Shown: one piece after another, positions 6,133-13,148 of the stretch
Layout of the letters: the number at the start of each line of letters is the position of its first letter
Position numbering within the stretch: the first letter of the stretch is position 1
NCBI GenBank assembly: GCA_003170275.1
Contig: PNAM01000088.1
Location: forward strand, 1 to 64,000
Reading direction: 5' to 3'
DNA from: Myxococcales bacterium
Lineage (GTDB): Bacteria; Myxococcota_A; Polyangia; Palsa-1104
DNA: 64,000 nucleotides
Notes under the pieces: model-generated
Database searches by the model: none
Seen by the model: the letters and a program-made list of their open reading frames with translations, nothing else
What the model was told of the DNA's origin: nothing
Position numbers and translations under genes: made by a program

Positions 6133-6686
6133 AGCGCTGCCCGTGGCCCGGCGAGGATCCGCTGTACGTGGCGTACCACGACACCGAGTGGGGCGTGCCG
6201 GAGTGGGACGCGCGCGCGCTGTTCGAGAAGCTGCTGCTCGACGGGTTTCAGGCGGGGCTGTCGTGGATCACGATCTTGCGCAAGCGCGATAACTTTCGCC
6301 GCGCGTTCGACGGCTTCGATCCCGCGCGCATCGTCCGCTACACGCCGGCCAAGCTCGAGCGGCTGATGAACGACGCCGGCATCGTGCGCAACCGCGCCAA
6401 GATCGAAGGCAGCGTCGCCAACGCGCGCGCCTACCTCACCCTCGAATCCGAATCCGGCTTCGCGCCGTTCCTCTGGCAATTCGTCGACGGCAAACCCAAG
6501 CTCAACCGCTTCCGCAGAAGACAGCAGGTCCCCGCCGAAACCCCCGAGAGCCGCGCCATGTCCAAAGCCCTACGCGCCCGCGGCTTCACCTTCGTCGGCC
6601 CCACCATCTGCTACGCCTTCATGCAAGCCGTCGGCATGGTCAACGACCACCTCACCACCTGCTTCCGCCATCCCCTCGTCGGTTAA
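6129..6686 (+). CDS. tag: DNA-3-methyladenine glycosylase I
   Basis: A 185-aa base-excision repair enzyme that removes 3-methyladenine from alkylated DNA. The zinc ligands are all present: C4 and H17 at the N-terminus and the HLTTC His/Cys pair near the C-terminus. The LDGFQAGLSWITIL block is typical; at the position of the E. coli catalytic Glu38 this protein has Asp38. It starts at the ATG overlapping the GNAT stop (ATGA). Length matches the family. The stop overlaps that of the convergent TlpA-like gene at 6683-6686. Confidence 0.92.
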   Translation: MKRCPWPGEDPLYVAYHDTEWGVPEWDARALFEKLLLDGFQAGLSWITILRKRDNFRRAFDGFDPARIVRYTPAKLERLMNDAGIVRNRAKIEGSVANARAYLTLESESGFAPFLWQFVDGKPKLNRFRRRQQVPAETPESRAMSKALRARGFTFVGPTICYAFMQAVGMVNDHLTTCFRHPLVG

Positions 6687-7270
6687 TCGGCGAGGGATTC
6701 GAGGCATTGTTGGACCTCGGGGGTGGACCAGTCGCGGTTGGAGACCACGAAGTAGCGGATGTTGCCGTCCTTGTCGACGAGGAACGACTCGGGAAACTTT
6801 TCGGTGCCGTAGAGCTTGGGGGTGGCGCGGGCGGTGTCGAGGAGGACCTCCAGCGGCGTGCCCTTGGCGAAGAACTTGCGGACCGTCGGCCAGTCGTCGT
6901 CGACGCTGACGGCGAGCAGGCGGAACGGTTTGGACTTCATGTTGGTGGCCAGCTTTTCCAGCGAGGCGATCTCTTCGCGGCAGGGCGGGCACCAGGTGGC
7001 CCAGAAGTTGACGATGACCGCCGTGCCGCGCAGCGACGAGAGCGTGACGTCGTGGCCGGCCCAGTCCTTGAGCGTGAAGTCGGGAGCGGGGCGCGGAAAG
7101 ACGCCGAGCACCGGGCTGTCGGGGGCGGGCAGCAGCGTCTCGCAGGCGGATTCGGCCGAGCGGTGCCAGCCTTCGCGCGCGCGCGCCGCCGCGTCGGGGA
7201 GCGCGATCGCGAACATCACCGCGAGCAGCAGCGCGACGCCGGCGGCGGCCAGATAGGCGAGCCACCTCAC
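6683..7270 (-). CDS. TlpA/ResA-like membrane-anchored thioredoxin
   Basis: About 195 aa, beginning at a GTG. An N-terminal membrane segment (residues 4-24) anchors a periplasmic AhpC/TSA-type redoxin domain (residues 60-195) with the active site W93-C94-P-P-C97 and a cis-Pro in KFPESFLVD. The family reduces disulfides in the periplasm, for example in cytochrome c maturation. It is the last gene of a minus-strand run; its GTG overlaps the stop of the mini-glutaredoxin gene. Two further Cys at C43 and near the C-terminus (VQQC) could form an additional disulfide. Confidence 0.85.
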
Positions 7271-7509
7271 GCGCCGCTCCGCAGCCGCTTGAGCAGCGCG
7301 GCCTCGTCGACGCGGAACTTGGCGGCCTTCTTACCGTCCACCAGCACCACCGGCACCTCCATCCCGTAGAGCTCGACCGCCTTGGGATCGCGATCTACGT
7401 CGAGCACCTCGAGCTCGAACGGCTCGGCCGCGCGCACGCGCTCGAGCGCCTCCTTGGCCACGTCGCACAAGTGGCAGTTCACGCGCGTATAGAGCTGGAT
7501 GCGCGCCAC
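7267..7509 (-). CDS. Glutaredoxin-like small redox protein
   Basis: An 80-aa cytosolic thioredoxin-fold protein with C12-H-L-C15 after the first strand ([11 protein letters not shown]), the DVDRDP segment and a cis-Pro in [10 protein letters not shown]. This is the glutaredoxin-like DUF836-type arrangement. Start GTG 7509 lies just after the aroF stop (7514-7512) and its stop overlaps the TlpA-like start, so the three are translationally coupled. Substrate unknown; the neighbourhood of thioredoxin-fold genes fits a disulfide-exchange role. Confidence 0.85.
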
Positions 7510-7511
7510 GA

Positions 7512-8543
7512 TCAGACCAGCTCCACCTTCATCACCTGCGCGATCGCGCGCAGCGAGTCCATCAGCGAGGCGAAGATCGCCGGCGTCAGCGACTGCGGTC
7601 CGTCGCACAATGCCTTGGACGGATCGGGATGCACGTCGACCATCACGCCGTCCGCGCCCACCGCCAGCGCCGCGCGCGCGAGCGCCGGCACCGACAGCGC
7701 GTCGCCGGTGCCGTGCGATGGATCGACGATGATCGGCAGGTGCGTGAGCCGCTTGATGAGCGGGATCGATCCGAGGTCGAGCGTGTTGCGCGTCATCGGC
7801 TCGAAGGTGCGGATGCCGCGCTCGCACAAGATCACGTTGTAGTTGCCGCCCTTGACGATGTACTCGGCGGCCATCAGGAACTCCTGGATCGTCGACGACA
7901 TGCCACGCTTGAGCATGACCGGCTTGCCCGACTCCGCCACTGCCTCGAGCAGCGCGAAGTTCTGCGCGTTGCGCGTGCCGATCTGCAGGATGTCGGCGTA
8001 CTCCGCCACCTGATCGACGTGCTGCGGATCGATCACCTCGGTCACCACCGGCATGCCGGTCTCCGCGCGCGCCTCGGCGAGGATCTTCAGCCCCTCGAGC
8101 TTGGTGCCCTGGAACGAGTAGGGCGAGGTGCGCGGCTTGTACGCGCCGCCGCGCAGGAAGCGCGCGCCCGATTCGCGCACGGTGCGCGCCGCGGCCAGCG
8201 TCTGCTCGCGCGTCTCGACCGCGCACGGCCCCGCGAACACGCCGAACACCCCGCCGCCCAGCCGCGACGCCGTGCCATTCGGTCCCTTCAAGGAGACCAC
8301 TGTGTCGTGCGGATGGGTCTCGCGCGACACTAGCTTCCACGGCTTCGAGATCGAGACCGCCTCGAACACGCCCGGCATGTGCGCGAAGAACCCGGGATCG
8401 ACCGGGCCCGGATTGCCGGTGATCGCGACCGCGATCCGCTGCGCGCCCGGCATCTTGTGCGGCGTGAACCCGAGGTCCCGCACCTTGGTCGCGACCTGCT
8501 CCACGTCCTCGGGCGTGGCGGTCGGGTGCATCAAGATCAGCAT
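7512..8543 (-). CDS. aroF: 3-deoxy-7-phosphoheptulonate (DAHP) synthase, AroA(I)-beta type
   Basis: A 343-aa enzyme that condenses phosphoenolpyruvate and erythrose-4-phosphate in the first step of the shikimate pathway. Residues 1-70 are a ferredoxin-like regulatory domain ([17 protein letters not shown]), as in Thermotoga-type enzymes. The barrel has [50 protein letters not shown] and DPSHGTG, all canonical substrate and metal sites. It begins 39 bases after the two-domain DsbA-like gene and is followed without gap by the glutaredoxin gene. The N-terminal domain usually mediates feedback control by aromatic amino acids. Confidence 0.93.
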
Positions 8544-9919: not shown

Positions 9920-12532
9920 TTAGTGCTTCTTCTTCAGCTCCTCGTCGATGATCGACGCGAAGCTCTCGAACGGCATCGCCCCGGCGATCTTCTTGCCGTT
10001 GATGAAGAAGGTCGGCGTGCCGAAGCCGCCGCCGCCGAGCCCATTGGCGTAGGCGACGTCGGCAGCGACCGCGGTCTTGAACTTGTTGCCGTCCAGATCC
10101 GCCTTGAACTTCTCCACGTTCAGCCCGATCTCCTGCGCGTACTTCTCGAGGTCGGGCCGGTTGAGCGCCTGCTGGTTGGCGAACAGCTTGTCGTGCATCT
10201 CCCAGAACTTGCCCTGCTCATTGGCCGCCATCGAGGCCTCGGCGGCTAGCTGCGCGTGATCGTGGAACGGCAGCGGATACTGCCGGAAGGCCAACCGCAC
10301 CTTGCCCTTGTACTTCTCCTCGATCTGCTTGACCGTCGGCACCACGCGCGAGCAGAACGGGCACTGGAAGTCCGAGAACTCGACGATCTGCACGGGCGCC
10401 GACTTCGGCCCGACCGCCGGCGCGTTGCCCGCATCGACCTTGTAGACCGTCTTGTCCTCGGCCGGAGCACCCTGCGGCGCCTGCGCCGGCGCGGCCGCCA
10501 CTTCGGCCTTGGCGTCCTTCATCATCGCGTCGTAGAGCTTGGCCGCCGGCGTGCCCTTCTTCATGAGCGCGTCCGCGTTCTTCAGCTCCTCGTCGATCTT
10601 GGCCTTGAACGCCTCGAACGGCTGCGCGCCGACGAACGGCTTGCCGTTGATGAAGAACGAGGGTGTGCCGCGCGCGCCGATCTTGTTGCCCTCGGCCTGC
10701 TCGGCGTCGACCTTCTGCTTCCACTTGCCCGAGTCCAGGTCGGACTTGAACTTCTCCATGTTCAGGCCGATCTCGCCCGCGTACTTCTCCAGGGCCGGGC
10801 GCTCGAGCGCGGTCTGGTTGGTGAACAGCTTCTTGTGCATCTCCCAGAACTTGCCCTGCGCCTTGGCCGCCAGCGCCGCCTCGGCCGCCAGGTGCGCGTT
10901 GTTGTGGAACGGCAGCGGTAGCTGCTTGAACGCCACGCGCACGGTGTCCTTGTACGCCTCCATCACCTTGTCGACGGTCGGCTCGACGCGGCCGCAGAAC
11001 GGGCACTGGAAGTCCGAGAACTCGACGATGGTCACCTTGGCGACCTTGGCGCCCTTGACCGGCGCGTCCCCGACGATCGCCCGGTAGACGGTGTTGTTGT
11101 CCGGCTCACCGGGGCGCGCCGCCGCCGCTGCTGCCGGCGCCTGATCGGCCTTGTCCTTGCCGTCCTTGGTCAGCTCGGCGTACAGGTCGGCCGGCTTGAC
11201 GCCGCGCTTGAGCGCCGCGTTGGCCGTTTCGATCTCCTTGTCGATCACCGCCTTGAACTGCTCGACCGGCTGCGCGCCACGGAGCGGGCGGCCGTTGATG
11301 AAGAACGACGGCGTGCCGCGCGCGCCCAGCCGCTCGGCGAGCGCCATGTCTTCCTTGATCGACGGCTCGGCCTTCTTCGCCGTGATCGCCGCCTTCCACT
11401 TGTTGATGTTGAGGCCGAGCTCGTTCGCATACTTCTCGTAGGTCGCGTCGTCGAGGTGCGCCTGATCCGCGAAGATCTTGTCGTGCATCTCCCAGAACTT
11501 GCCCTGCTCACCGGCCGCCATCGCCGCCATCGCCGCGGGCGTCGCGTTGGGGTGGAACGGCAGCGGGTTGTTCTTCCACACCACGCGGATGTCCTTGCCG
11601 TAGTCCTTCTCGATCTGGGTGACGGTCGGCTCGACGCGCGAGCAGAACGGGCACTGGAAGTCCGAGAACTGCACGACGGTGACCTTGGCGGTCTTGGAGC
11701 CGCGCTCGGGCGAGCTGCCCACCGGCACCTTGTAGACCGCGGCCGGATCGGCCGTCGCAGGCTGCGCCGGCTTGGGCGGCTGGTTGGCGTCGGCGACGGC
11801 GGCGCCCGGCTTGGCGTTGCGAGTCAGCGCGTCGTACACCTGCCCGGCGGCGACGCCGGCGTTGATCGCCTTGGTGGCGTTGGCGATCTCTTCGTCGATC
11901 ACCTTCTTGAACGCCTCGAACGGCTGCGCGCCGGAGAGCGGGCGGCCGTTGATGAAGAACGACGGCGTGCCACGCGCGCCGAACTTGGCGGCCTCATCCT
12001 GATCGGCCTTGATCGCCGCGGTGTACTTCGGCGTGTCGAGCGCTTCCTTGACCTTGGCCGCGTCGAGCCCGAGCTCGCCCGCGTACTTCTCCAGGCTCGC
12101 GCGATCGAGCGCCTGCTGGTTCTTGAACAGCTTGTCGTGCGCCTCCCAGAACTTGCCCTTCTCGTTGGCGGCCAGCGCGATCTGCGCCGCCGGGGTGGCG
12201 TTCTGGTGGAACGGCAGCGGGTTGTTCTTCCACGCCACGCGGATGTCCTTGCCGTAGGTCTTCATGATCTGATCGACCGTCGGCTCGACGCGCGAGCAGA
12301 ACGGGCACTGGAAGTCGGAGAACTCGACGATGGTGACCTTGGCCTTTTCCGAGCCCTTGACCGGCGCGTTGCCGACTGGCACGTGGTAGCGATCGACGCT
12401 CGGATCGGGAACCGCCGCGGCGGGAATGACCGCCAGCGGTGCGTCGCCGTGGGCGCCTTGCATGTAACCGCCGAGGAAATACCCGACGGCGAGCGAGACC
12501 AACATTCCGATGATGGCTGTACCTTTGCTCAT
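9920..12532 (-). CDS. Four-domain (tandem) DsbA-like thiol oxidoreductase
   Basis: An 870-aa protein with an N-terminal hydrophobic segment (residues 6-24) that may be an anchor, then four consecutive DsbA/Thioredoxin_4 modules of about 215 aa. The active sites are C76/C79, C294/C297, C510/C513 and C724/C727, all CPFC in the context FSDFQCPFC. Each module has the cis-Pro loop GTP(S/T)FFING. No other cysteine exists in the protein. Ala/Pro-rich linkers near 245-265, 460-480 and 675-692 separate modules. Ribosome site AGGAAAGG precedes the ATG. Typical DsbA has one module, so a string of four is unusual. It probably handles periplasmic disulfides; the genes just upstream encode secreted proteins with conserved cysteines. 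Confidence 0.9.
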   Translation of the reverse strand: MSKGTAIIGMLVSLAVGYFLGGYMQGAHGDAPLAVIPAAAVPDPSVDRYHVPVGNAPVKGSEKAKVTIVEFSDFQCPFCSRVEPTVDQIMKTYGKDIRVAWKNNPLPFHQNATPAAQIALAANEKGKFWEAHDKLFKNQQALDRASLEKYAGELGLDAAKVKEALDTPKYTAAIKADQDEAAKFGARGTPSFFINGRPLSGAQPFEAFKKVIDEEIANATKAINAGVAAGQVYDALTRNAKPGAAVADANQPPKPAQPATADPAAVYKVPVGSSPERGSKTAKVTVVQFSDFQCPFCSRVEPTVTQIEKDYGKDIRVVWKNNPLPFHPNATPAAMAAMAAGEQGKFWEMHDKIFADQAHLDDATYEKYANELGLNINKWKAAITAKKAEPSIKEDMALAERLGARGTPSFFINGRPLRGAQPVEQFKAVIDKEIETANAALKRGVKPADLYAELTKDGKDKADQAPAAAAAARPGEPDNNTVYRAIVGDAPVKGAKVAKVTIVEFSDFQCPFCGRVEPTVDKVMEAYKDTVRVAFKQLPLPFHNNAHLAAEAALAAKAQGKFWEMHKKLFTNQTALERPALEKYAGEIGLNMEKFKSDLDSGKWKQKVDAEQAEGNKIGARGTPSFFINGKPFVGAQPFEAFKAKIDEELKNADALMKKGTPAAKLYDAMMKDAKAEVAAAPAQAPQGAPAEDKTVYKVDAGNAPAVGPKSAPVQIVEFSDFQCPFCSRVVPTVKQIEEKYKGKVRLAFRQYPLPFHDHAQLAAEASMAANEQGKFWEMHDKLFANQQALNRPDLEKYAQEIGLNVEKFKADLDGNKFKTAVAADVAYANGLGGGGFGTPTFFINGKKIAGAMPFESFASIIDEELKKKH

Positions 12533-12626: not shown

Positions 12627-13148
12627 CTAGGCGGCGCGAGGGGGTCGTTCGACGCGCGGCAGGAGCGCCTGGGCCGGCCGCAGATCGCGCGACCCGGGCA
12701 GCAGTGAGGACGTGAGCACGATCGAGAGATCGAGTTGCTGGAGCGCGATCAGGCTGCCGTCGGAGATCGGACGGGCGGCGGAGCGCATCGGCGAGGAGTC
12801 GTGGCTGCAGCGGAACCCGTCGCACATGCGCGCGGGCACGCCGTCGTGGGCGGCGCGCAGCACGGGTTGGCCGACGCCGGGCGGGGTGGGCTTGGGCATG
12901 TCGCACGAGCCGATCATCTCGCCCACCCACTGGCTCATGCCCGGATCGTTGCAGTCGATGAGCGCCGGCGCGGGCGCGGGCGGCTCACTGCACGCGACGC
13001 CCTCGAGCAACGGCTGCGCGGGCTTGGCGACGTCGTCGAGCGCGTCGGCGCAGGCGGCCTCGTCGTAGGTGCTCGCCATGGGCAGCAACGACGGCGCAGG
13101 GAGCGCCGACGTCACCGCCGCGAGGACCAACGAGCCAGCCCAGAGCAT
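12627..13148 (-). CDS. Small secreted Cys-containing protein, unknown function
   Basis: A 173-aa protein with a short N-terminal hydrophobic segment (LWAGSLVLAAVTSALPAPS) that looks like a signal peptide. The mature part has six cysteines in pairs (AAC...GVAC, DC...SC, MC...RC) and is Pro-rich in the middle (PPAPAPA). No family is recognised. It lies between the five DctP-like genes (52-base gap) and the four-domain DsbA-like gene, on the same strand. The six Cys make it a plausible disulfide client of those oxidoreductases; that is inference from position and composition. Confidence 0.6.
   Translation of the reverse strand: MLWAGSLVLAAVTSALPAPSLLPMASTYDEAACADALDDVAKPAQPLLEGVACSEPPAPAPALIDCNDPGMSQWVGEMIGSCDMPKPTPPGVGQPVLRAAHDGVPARMCDGFRCSHDSSPMRSAARPISDGSLIALQQLDLSIVLTSSLLPGSRDLRPAQALLPRVERPPRAA

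Follow-up and report, generated by a model that had tools for sequence, protein, structure and literature searches.

The oligomeric disulfide isomerases ScsC, Wolbachia alpha-DsbA2 and DsbC combine a DsbA-like fold and a GTcP loop with several active sites per functional unit, and all of them become multivalent through an N-terminal oligomerisation domain. The GTcP motif is common to the five isomerases that have been compared, whereas the corresponding loop of oxidase-type proteins is often Val-cisPro (PMC6450060). When PmScsC is taken out of its trimer, its isomerase activity is lost and it becomes an oxidase (PMC5524982), which indicates that multivalency matters within the DsbA-like fold. 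Chains with several such domains are known from eukaryotes. The glucosyltransferase folding sensor UGGT has four DsbA-like domains in one chain, but these are mutually diverged, one of them is built from non-consecutive stretches, and an origin by gene duplication is not favoured (PMC7687155). PDI and ERp57 also carry several thioredoxin-fold domains per chain for disulfide exchange, but these do not have the DsbA fold and only some of them are catalytic (in ERp57, two are and two are not; PMC7687155).

The protein described here is encoded within a window of 64,000 nucleotides (the whole stretch of DNA that was analysed) from a Myxococcales bacterium. It shares with ScsC, alpha-DsbA2 and DsbC the fold, the GTcP loop and the multiplicity of active sites, and its genome encodes DsbD-type reductants; however, its sites are multiplied by covalent repetition, and an N-terminal oligomerisation domain is absent, as only a signal anchor and a stretch of low confidence in the AlphaFold model precede module 1. 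The closest solved structures are C. diphtheriae DsbA/TsdA (4pwo, 7unn), with 37-39% identity over one module, but these are single-module proteins, whereas the window protein has four. The resemblance to UGGT comes from a Foldseek structure match. The nearest named family is NCBIfam NF041057 (Rcas_1661 family thioredoxin-like (seleno)lipoprotein), whose sites are CPxC or UPxC and whose model is matched by each module. This model covers one module (247 positions), whereas the window chain matches it in four stretches and scores 397 bits (cut-off 190); single modules reach about 92-116 bits, under this whole-protein cut-off. Although the family is one of (seleno)lipoproteins, the window protein lacks a lipobox cysteine and thus a lipoprotein signal.

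The four-module chain and its gene neighbourhood

The initial annotation described four complete Thioredoxin_4/DsbA modules in one chain, with eight cysteines that all lie in CPFC motifs. The domain search bears this out: Pfam-A finds four stretches of PF13462 Thioredoxin_4 (391 bits) and four of PF01323 DSBA (324 bits), and in both fold and family the modules are of the DsbA type (Pfam, Foldseek). The residue positions agree as well, since the cysteines of the 870-aa protein are 76/79, 294/297, 510/513 and 724/727, and none lies outside the CPFC sites. The four modules are 54-67% identical to one another. Helix 6-22 forms the N-terminal signal anchor. The gene has no in-frame TGA and all of its active sites read cysteine, so the protein is not itself a selenoprotein. 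Chance or an assembly artefact is ruled out as the source of the array by four-module orthologues with up to 77% identity.

An AlphaFold model of the full chain, made with 25 four-module sequences, predicts all four modules with confidence, together with a single helix at the N-terminus and linkers that are disordered (mean pLDDT 86.5, pTM 0.40). Residues with pLDDT below 50 (1-32, 246-260, 464-471 and 681-692) correspond to the N-terminus and the three linkers, and the relative placement of the modules is not fixed by the model, so that the predicted architecture is best read as beads on a string with flexible linkers. The thioredoxin fold with a helical insertion and a CxxC site is evident from Pfam, AlphaFold and Foldseek alike. 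Foldseek ranks C. diphtheriae DsbA/TsdA first, followed by S. pomeroyi 3gyk, Wolbachia alpha-DsbA2, ScsC and BdbD, with UGGT also among the matches.

Table 1. Coordinates of the four-module gene, its modules and the neighbouring genes (positions in the window)
Feature	Position	Strand	Description
TlpA/ResA-like thioredoxin	6683..7270	-	N-terminal anchor, WCPPC
Glutaredoxin-like gene (PF05768)	7267..7509	-	NCHLC motif; GTG start inferred
DAHP synthase (aroF type)	7512..8543	-	between module arrays and Grx/TlpA genes
Two-module DsbA-fold protein, 422 aa	8583..9851	-	both sites CPFC; 68 bases downstream of four-module gene
Four-module DsbA-fold protein gene	9920..12532	-	870 aa; ATG-to-stop open reading frame
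Module 4	9941..10426	-	CPFC at 10352-10363; GTP loop residues 838-840
Module 3	10589..11065	-	CPFC at 10994-11005; GTP loop residues 622-624
Module 2	11237..11707	-	CPFC at 11642-11653; GTP loop residues 406-408
Module 1 (Thioredoxin_4)	11891..12367	-	CPFC at 12296-12307; GTP loop residues 188-190
Small secreted-looking ORF	12627..13148	-	directly upstream of four-module gene

The genes from the two arrays through the TlpA-like gene lie on one strand with short gaps or overlaps (Table 1), and it is therefore likely that the arrays, the DAHP synthase, the glutaredoxin-like gene and the TlpA-like gene form one operon. The modules of the two-module protein are nearest to each other and not to those of the four-module gene. 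A DAHP synthase gene is thus found within a run of thiol-redox genes, and its position is kept in the closest relatives (loci L073, L097 and L099). In 17 of 25 four-module loci that are flanked by 500 bases or more, a TlpA-like gene follows downstream on the same strand, mostly within 470 bases; for three-module genes this link is weak. The small ORF upstream has no Pfam match, but its motif IDCxDP...WVxEMIGxCDMP is found in the same place in L073, L077, L082 and L097, and it is possible that its product is a dedicated client of the four-module protein.

Module arrays in other Myxococcota

Matches to the window protein at E 1e-30 occur in 272 of 282 genomes of the phylum, many of them to shorter or one-module chains. 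Among named relatives, the closest carry the labels Myxococcales or Myxococcota, and most relatives come from metagenome-assembled genomes. Within the 79 best loci, complete chains comprise 47 with three modules, 25 with four and one with seven, in a sample that was picked by similarity to the query and is thus biased to long chains. Three-module chains are present in named Myxococcus, Corallococcus, Pyxidicoccus and Hyalangium genomes. A tblastn search of plasmids returned just scattered single-module matches, with pieces stacked. Across the family, the module number ranges from two to seven. At the upper end, the seven-module chain (L101:5938-10968) and a chain of at least six modules (L096:5938-9435) stem from recent duplication, as the distance between modules 4 and 7 of the former is 0.04; its end looks frameshifted, with all seven modules intact. 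Two other chains deserve mention, namely a three-module chain reading CPFC-CPFS-CPFS (L143), in which the second cysteine is lost in two modules, and a chain of four modules whose short contig carries an Elusimicrobia label (L077), as a result of either transfer or misbinning.

When each of 115 modules is compared with its nearest match in another chain, the two share the same position in 102 cases (shuffled mean 28.6, maximum 57). This grouping indicates that the array predates the divergence of these species and that the positions have stayed distinct since; it also rules out that the four modules arose by recent tandem duplication. The initial annotation had left room for four-domain forms being widespread and already characterised. 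Multi-module forms with three, four and up to seven modules are indeed widespread across Myxococcota, but no paper that characterises them was found: the open-licence literature, which is weak evidence in this respect, yielded no description of tandem DsbA proteins or of Sec or multi-Sec forms in this phylum. Thus, the tandem family in Myxococcota is old and apparently unstudied.

Predicted selenocysteine codons in a paralogue and in relatives

The same genome encodes a 532-aa two-module paralogue (C73:88668-90266 in genome G000; L042:3669-5267), in which TGA replaces the first cysteine codon at both active sites, giving UPFC twice. This paralogue scores 213.7 bits against the NF041057 cut-off of 190 and has an N-terminal anchor followed, before the modules, by a cysteine-rich stretch (PCDCGC) without a Pfam match at E 0.001. 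A DFQ-TGA-P[FY]C pattern is present at 23 sites in 14 of the 282 genomes, whereas none of them has it with TAA or TAG at that codon. A four-module orthologue of the window protein with about 64% identity (L097) reads UPFC-CPFC-CPFC-UPFC, two chains in G204 carry three Sec codons each (UPFC-UPFC-UPYC), and chains in G166 and G120 read UPFC-UPFC-CPFC and UPYC-CPFC-CPFC, respectively.

The RNA that follows these codons is distinctive. The predicted folding 3' of the TGA averages -15.9 kcal/mol at 25 Sec sites and -7.4 kcal/mol at 120 Cys sites (Mann-Whitney p 1.4e-9), and a GGTC apical loop at +21 is present at 23 of 25 Sec sites compared with three of 259 Cys sites. In the stem of 21 distinct GGTC-loop sites, eight cells are changed on both sides, a value reached in none of 500 shuffles, although the relatedness of the sequences weakens this control. 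Residue +7 is glycine at 23 of the 25 Sec sites but at only 13 of the 259 Cys sites, and this skew suggests that the residue is dictated by the predicted SECIS element. Three Cys modules (L079:6906, L090:3526 and L111:7518) keep both the glycine and the GGTC loop sequence and are possible former Sec sites.

In the window genome, tRNA-Sec is matched strongly (74.4 bits) and SelB is present (305.7 bits). Strong tRNA-Sec matches, the only ones counted, because at E 0.001 ordinary tRNAs match too and all 14 controls are positive, were obtained in 11 of the 14 genomes that carry Sec sites; the fragmented drafts G166, G129 and G266 have weak ones only. The paralogue and the relatives thus combine in-frame TGA, a SECIS-like hairpin, tRNA-Sec and SelB, and Sec incorporation at their UPxC sites is predicted. 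A pseudogene was considered and rejected as the main reading of the paralogue, given that TGA occurs 23 times and TAA or TAG never in 282 genomes and that the hairpin at the TGA sites covaries. In a 2026 review, NF041057 appears as a single-Sec, DsbG-like selenoprotein, and families with two or three Sec are counted as a small subset only (PMC13188914). The Myxococcota relatives would carry two or three Sec per chain, and, judged from the DNA, such tandem multi-Sec chains are putatively new with respect to this review. It may tentatively be proposed that the phylum-wide DsbA-fold chains have Sec set module by module (anywhere from none to all of the two to four modules, and at most three Sec per chain) and that mixed Sec and Cys modules have distinct, position-specific roles. 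All of this evidence bears on relatives of the window gene and not on the gene itself.

Direction of the reaction and role of the array

The CPFC motif alone does not tell an oxidase from an isomerase. Across 25 chains, the GTP loop and the CPxC site do not vary in any of the four modules, and threonine precedes the cis-proline in every one of these modules, so the Val-cisPro loop of the oxidase type is not found. Neither DsbB (PF02600) nor VKOR (PF07884) has a profile match in the window genome, which scores as complete, although a divergent or small-molecule oxidant would escape such a search; four other genomes with long chains (G012, G017, G022 and G027) have no match to either as well. 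Two DsbD-type proteins (DsbD_TM with a C-terminal Trx domain) are encoded in the window genome, the one genome searched for DsbD, and one of their genes adjoins a TlpA-like gene. Taken together with the TlpA-like neighbour of the array and the precedent of PmScsC, these observations lead us to infer a multivalent disulfide isomerase or reductase, whose avidity would come from covalent repetition and not from oligomerisation; we assign this reading a probability of roughly 0.55. The label 'DsbA-like' in the initial annotation consequently holds for the fold, whereas an oxidase function has become doubtful in view of the GTcP loops, the lack of DsbB and VKOR matches and the presence of DsbD-like reductases.

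An oxidase of high capacity, in which the four DsbA units would hand disulfides to exported proteins and regain them from VKOR or, in this species, from another oxidant, would be in keeping with the closest solved relative, C. diphtheriae DsbA/TsdA. Among 111 complete genomes of the phylum, 75 (about two thirds) have VKOR and 11 have DsbB; an oxidant is therefore common, but not universal, where the chains occur, and the VKOR count speaks against the isomerase reading to the extent that arrays elsewhere may be oxidised. For the oxidase to be preferred, one would have to set aside both the five genomes without a VKOR or DsbB match and the threonine that precedes the cis-proline in all modules, and we consider it rather unlikely. 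Another use of dithiol or selenothiol sites would be detoxification or metal handling, with peroxide, copper or selenium compounds as substrates. ScsC is tied to copper tolerance, and the TlpA-like neighbour together with the ScsC-like fold recalls scs operons. Sec is also common among proteins that face peroxides or metals (PMC13188914), but no metal transporter or peroxidase is seen in the operon and the conserved neighbours (DAHP synthase, glutaredoxin) are general ones, which leaves this use with a small probability.

The conserved module positions and mixed chains such as UPFC-CPFC-CPFC-UPFC, which imply unequal modules, would also suit an intramolecular relay, in which modules of different potential would hand electrons or disulfides on from one to the next and so link a membrane partner with a substrate. 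Nonetheless, disordered linkers and a pTM of 0.40 offer no fixed path, and a fixed relay could hardly tolerate a module number that varies from two to seven; such a relay is thus improbable.

Under the isomerase/reductase reading, the window protein would act in the periplasm as a membrane-anchored thiol-disulfide exchange protein, a DsbA-fold member of the Rcas_1661/DsbG-like family. Prediction gives it four catalytically complete modules that flexible linkers join into one covalent string. Its main role would probably be to isomerise or reduce disulfides of exported proteins, and its reduced state might be maintained by the DsbD-like proteins, whose genes lie at other loci of the genome, with possible help from the TlpA-like neighbour. 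By analogy with DsbC, ScsC and Wolbachia alpha-DsbA2, in which oligomerisation has this effect, tandem repetition would put several active sites on one substrate. In relatives, replacement of the first cysteine by Sec in individual modules would raise reactivity or resistance to over-oxidation.

If this reading is true, Myxococcota possess a prokaryotic multi-site disulfide isomerase that is built by covalent repetition rather than by oligomerisation. The Sec chains would bring multi-Sec members into a family listed as single-Sec. As natural sets of near-identical Cys and Sec modules within one chain, the Sec forms would help to address what a thioredoxin-fold enzyme gains from selenium.
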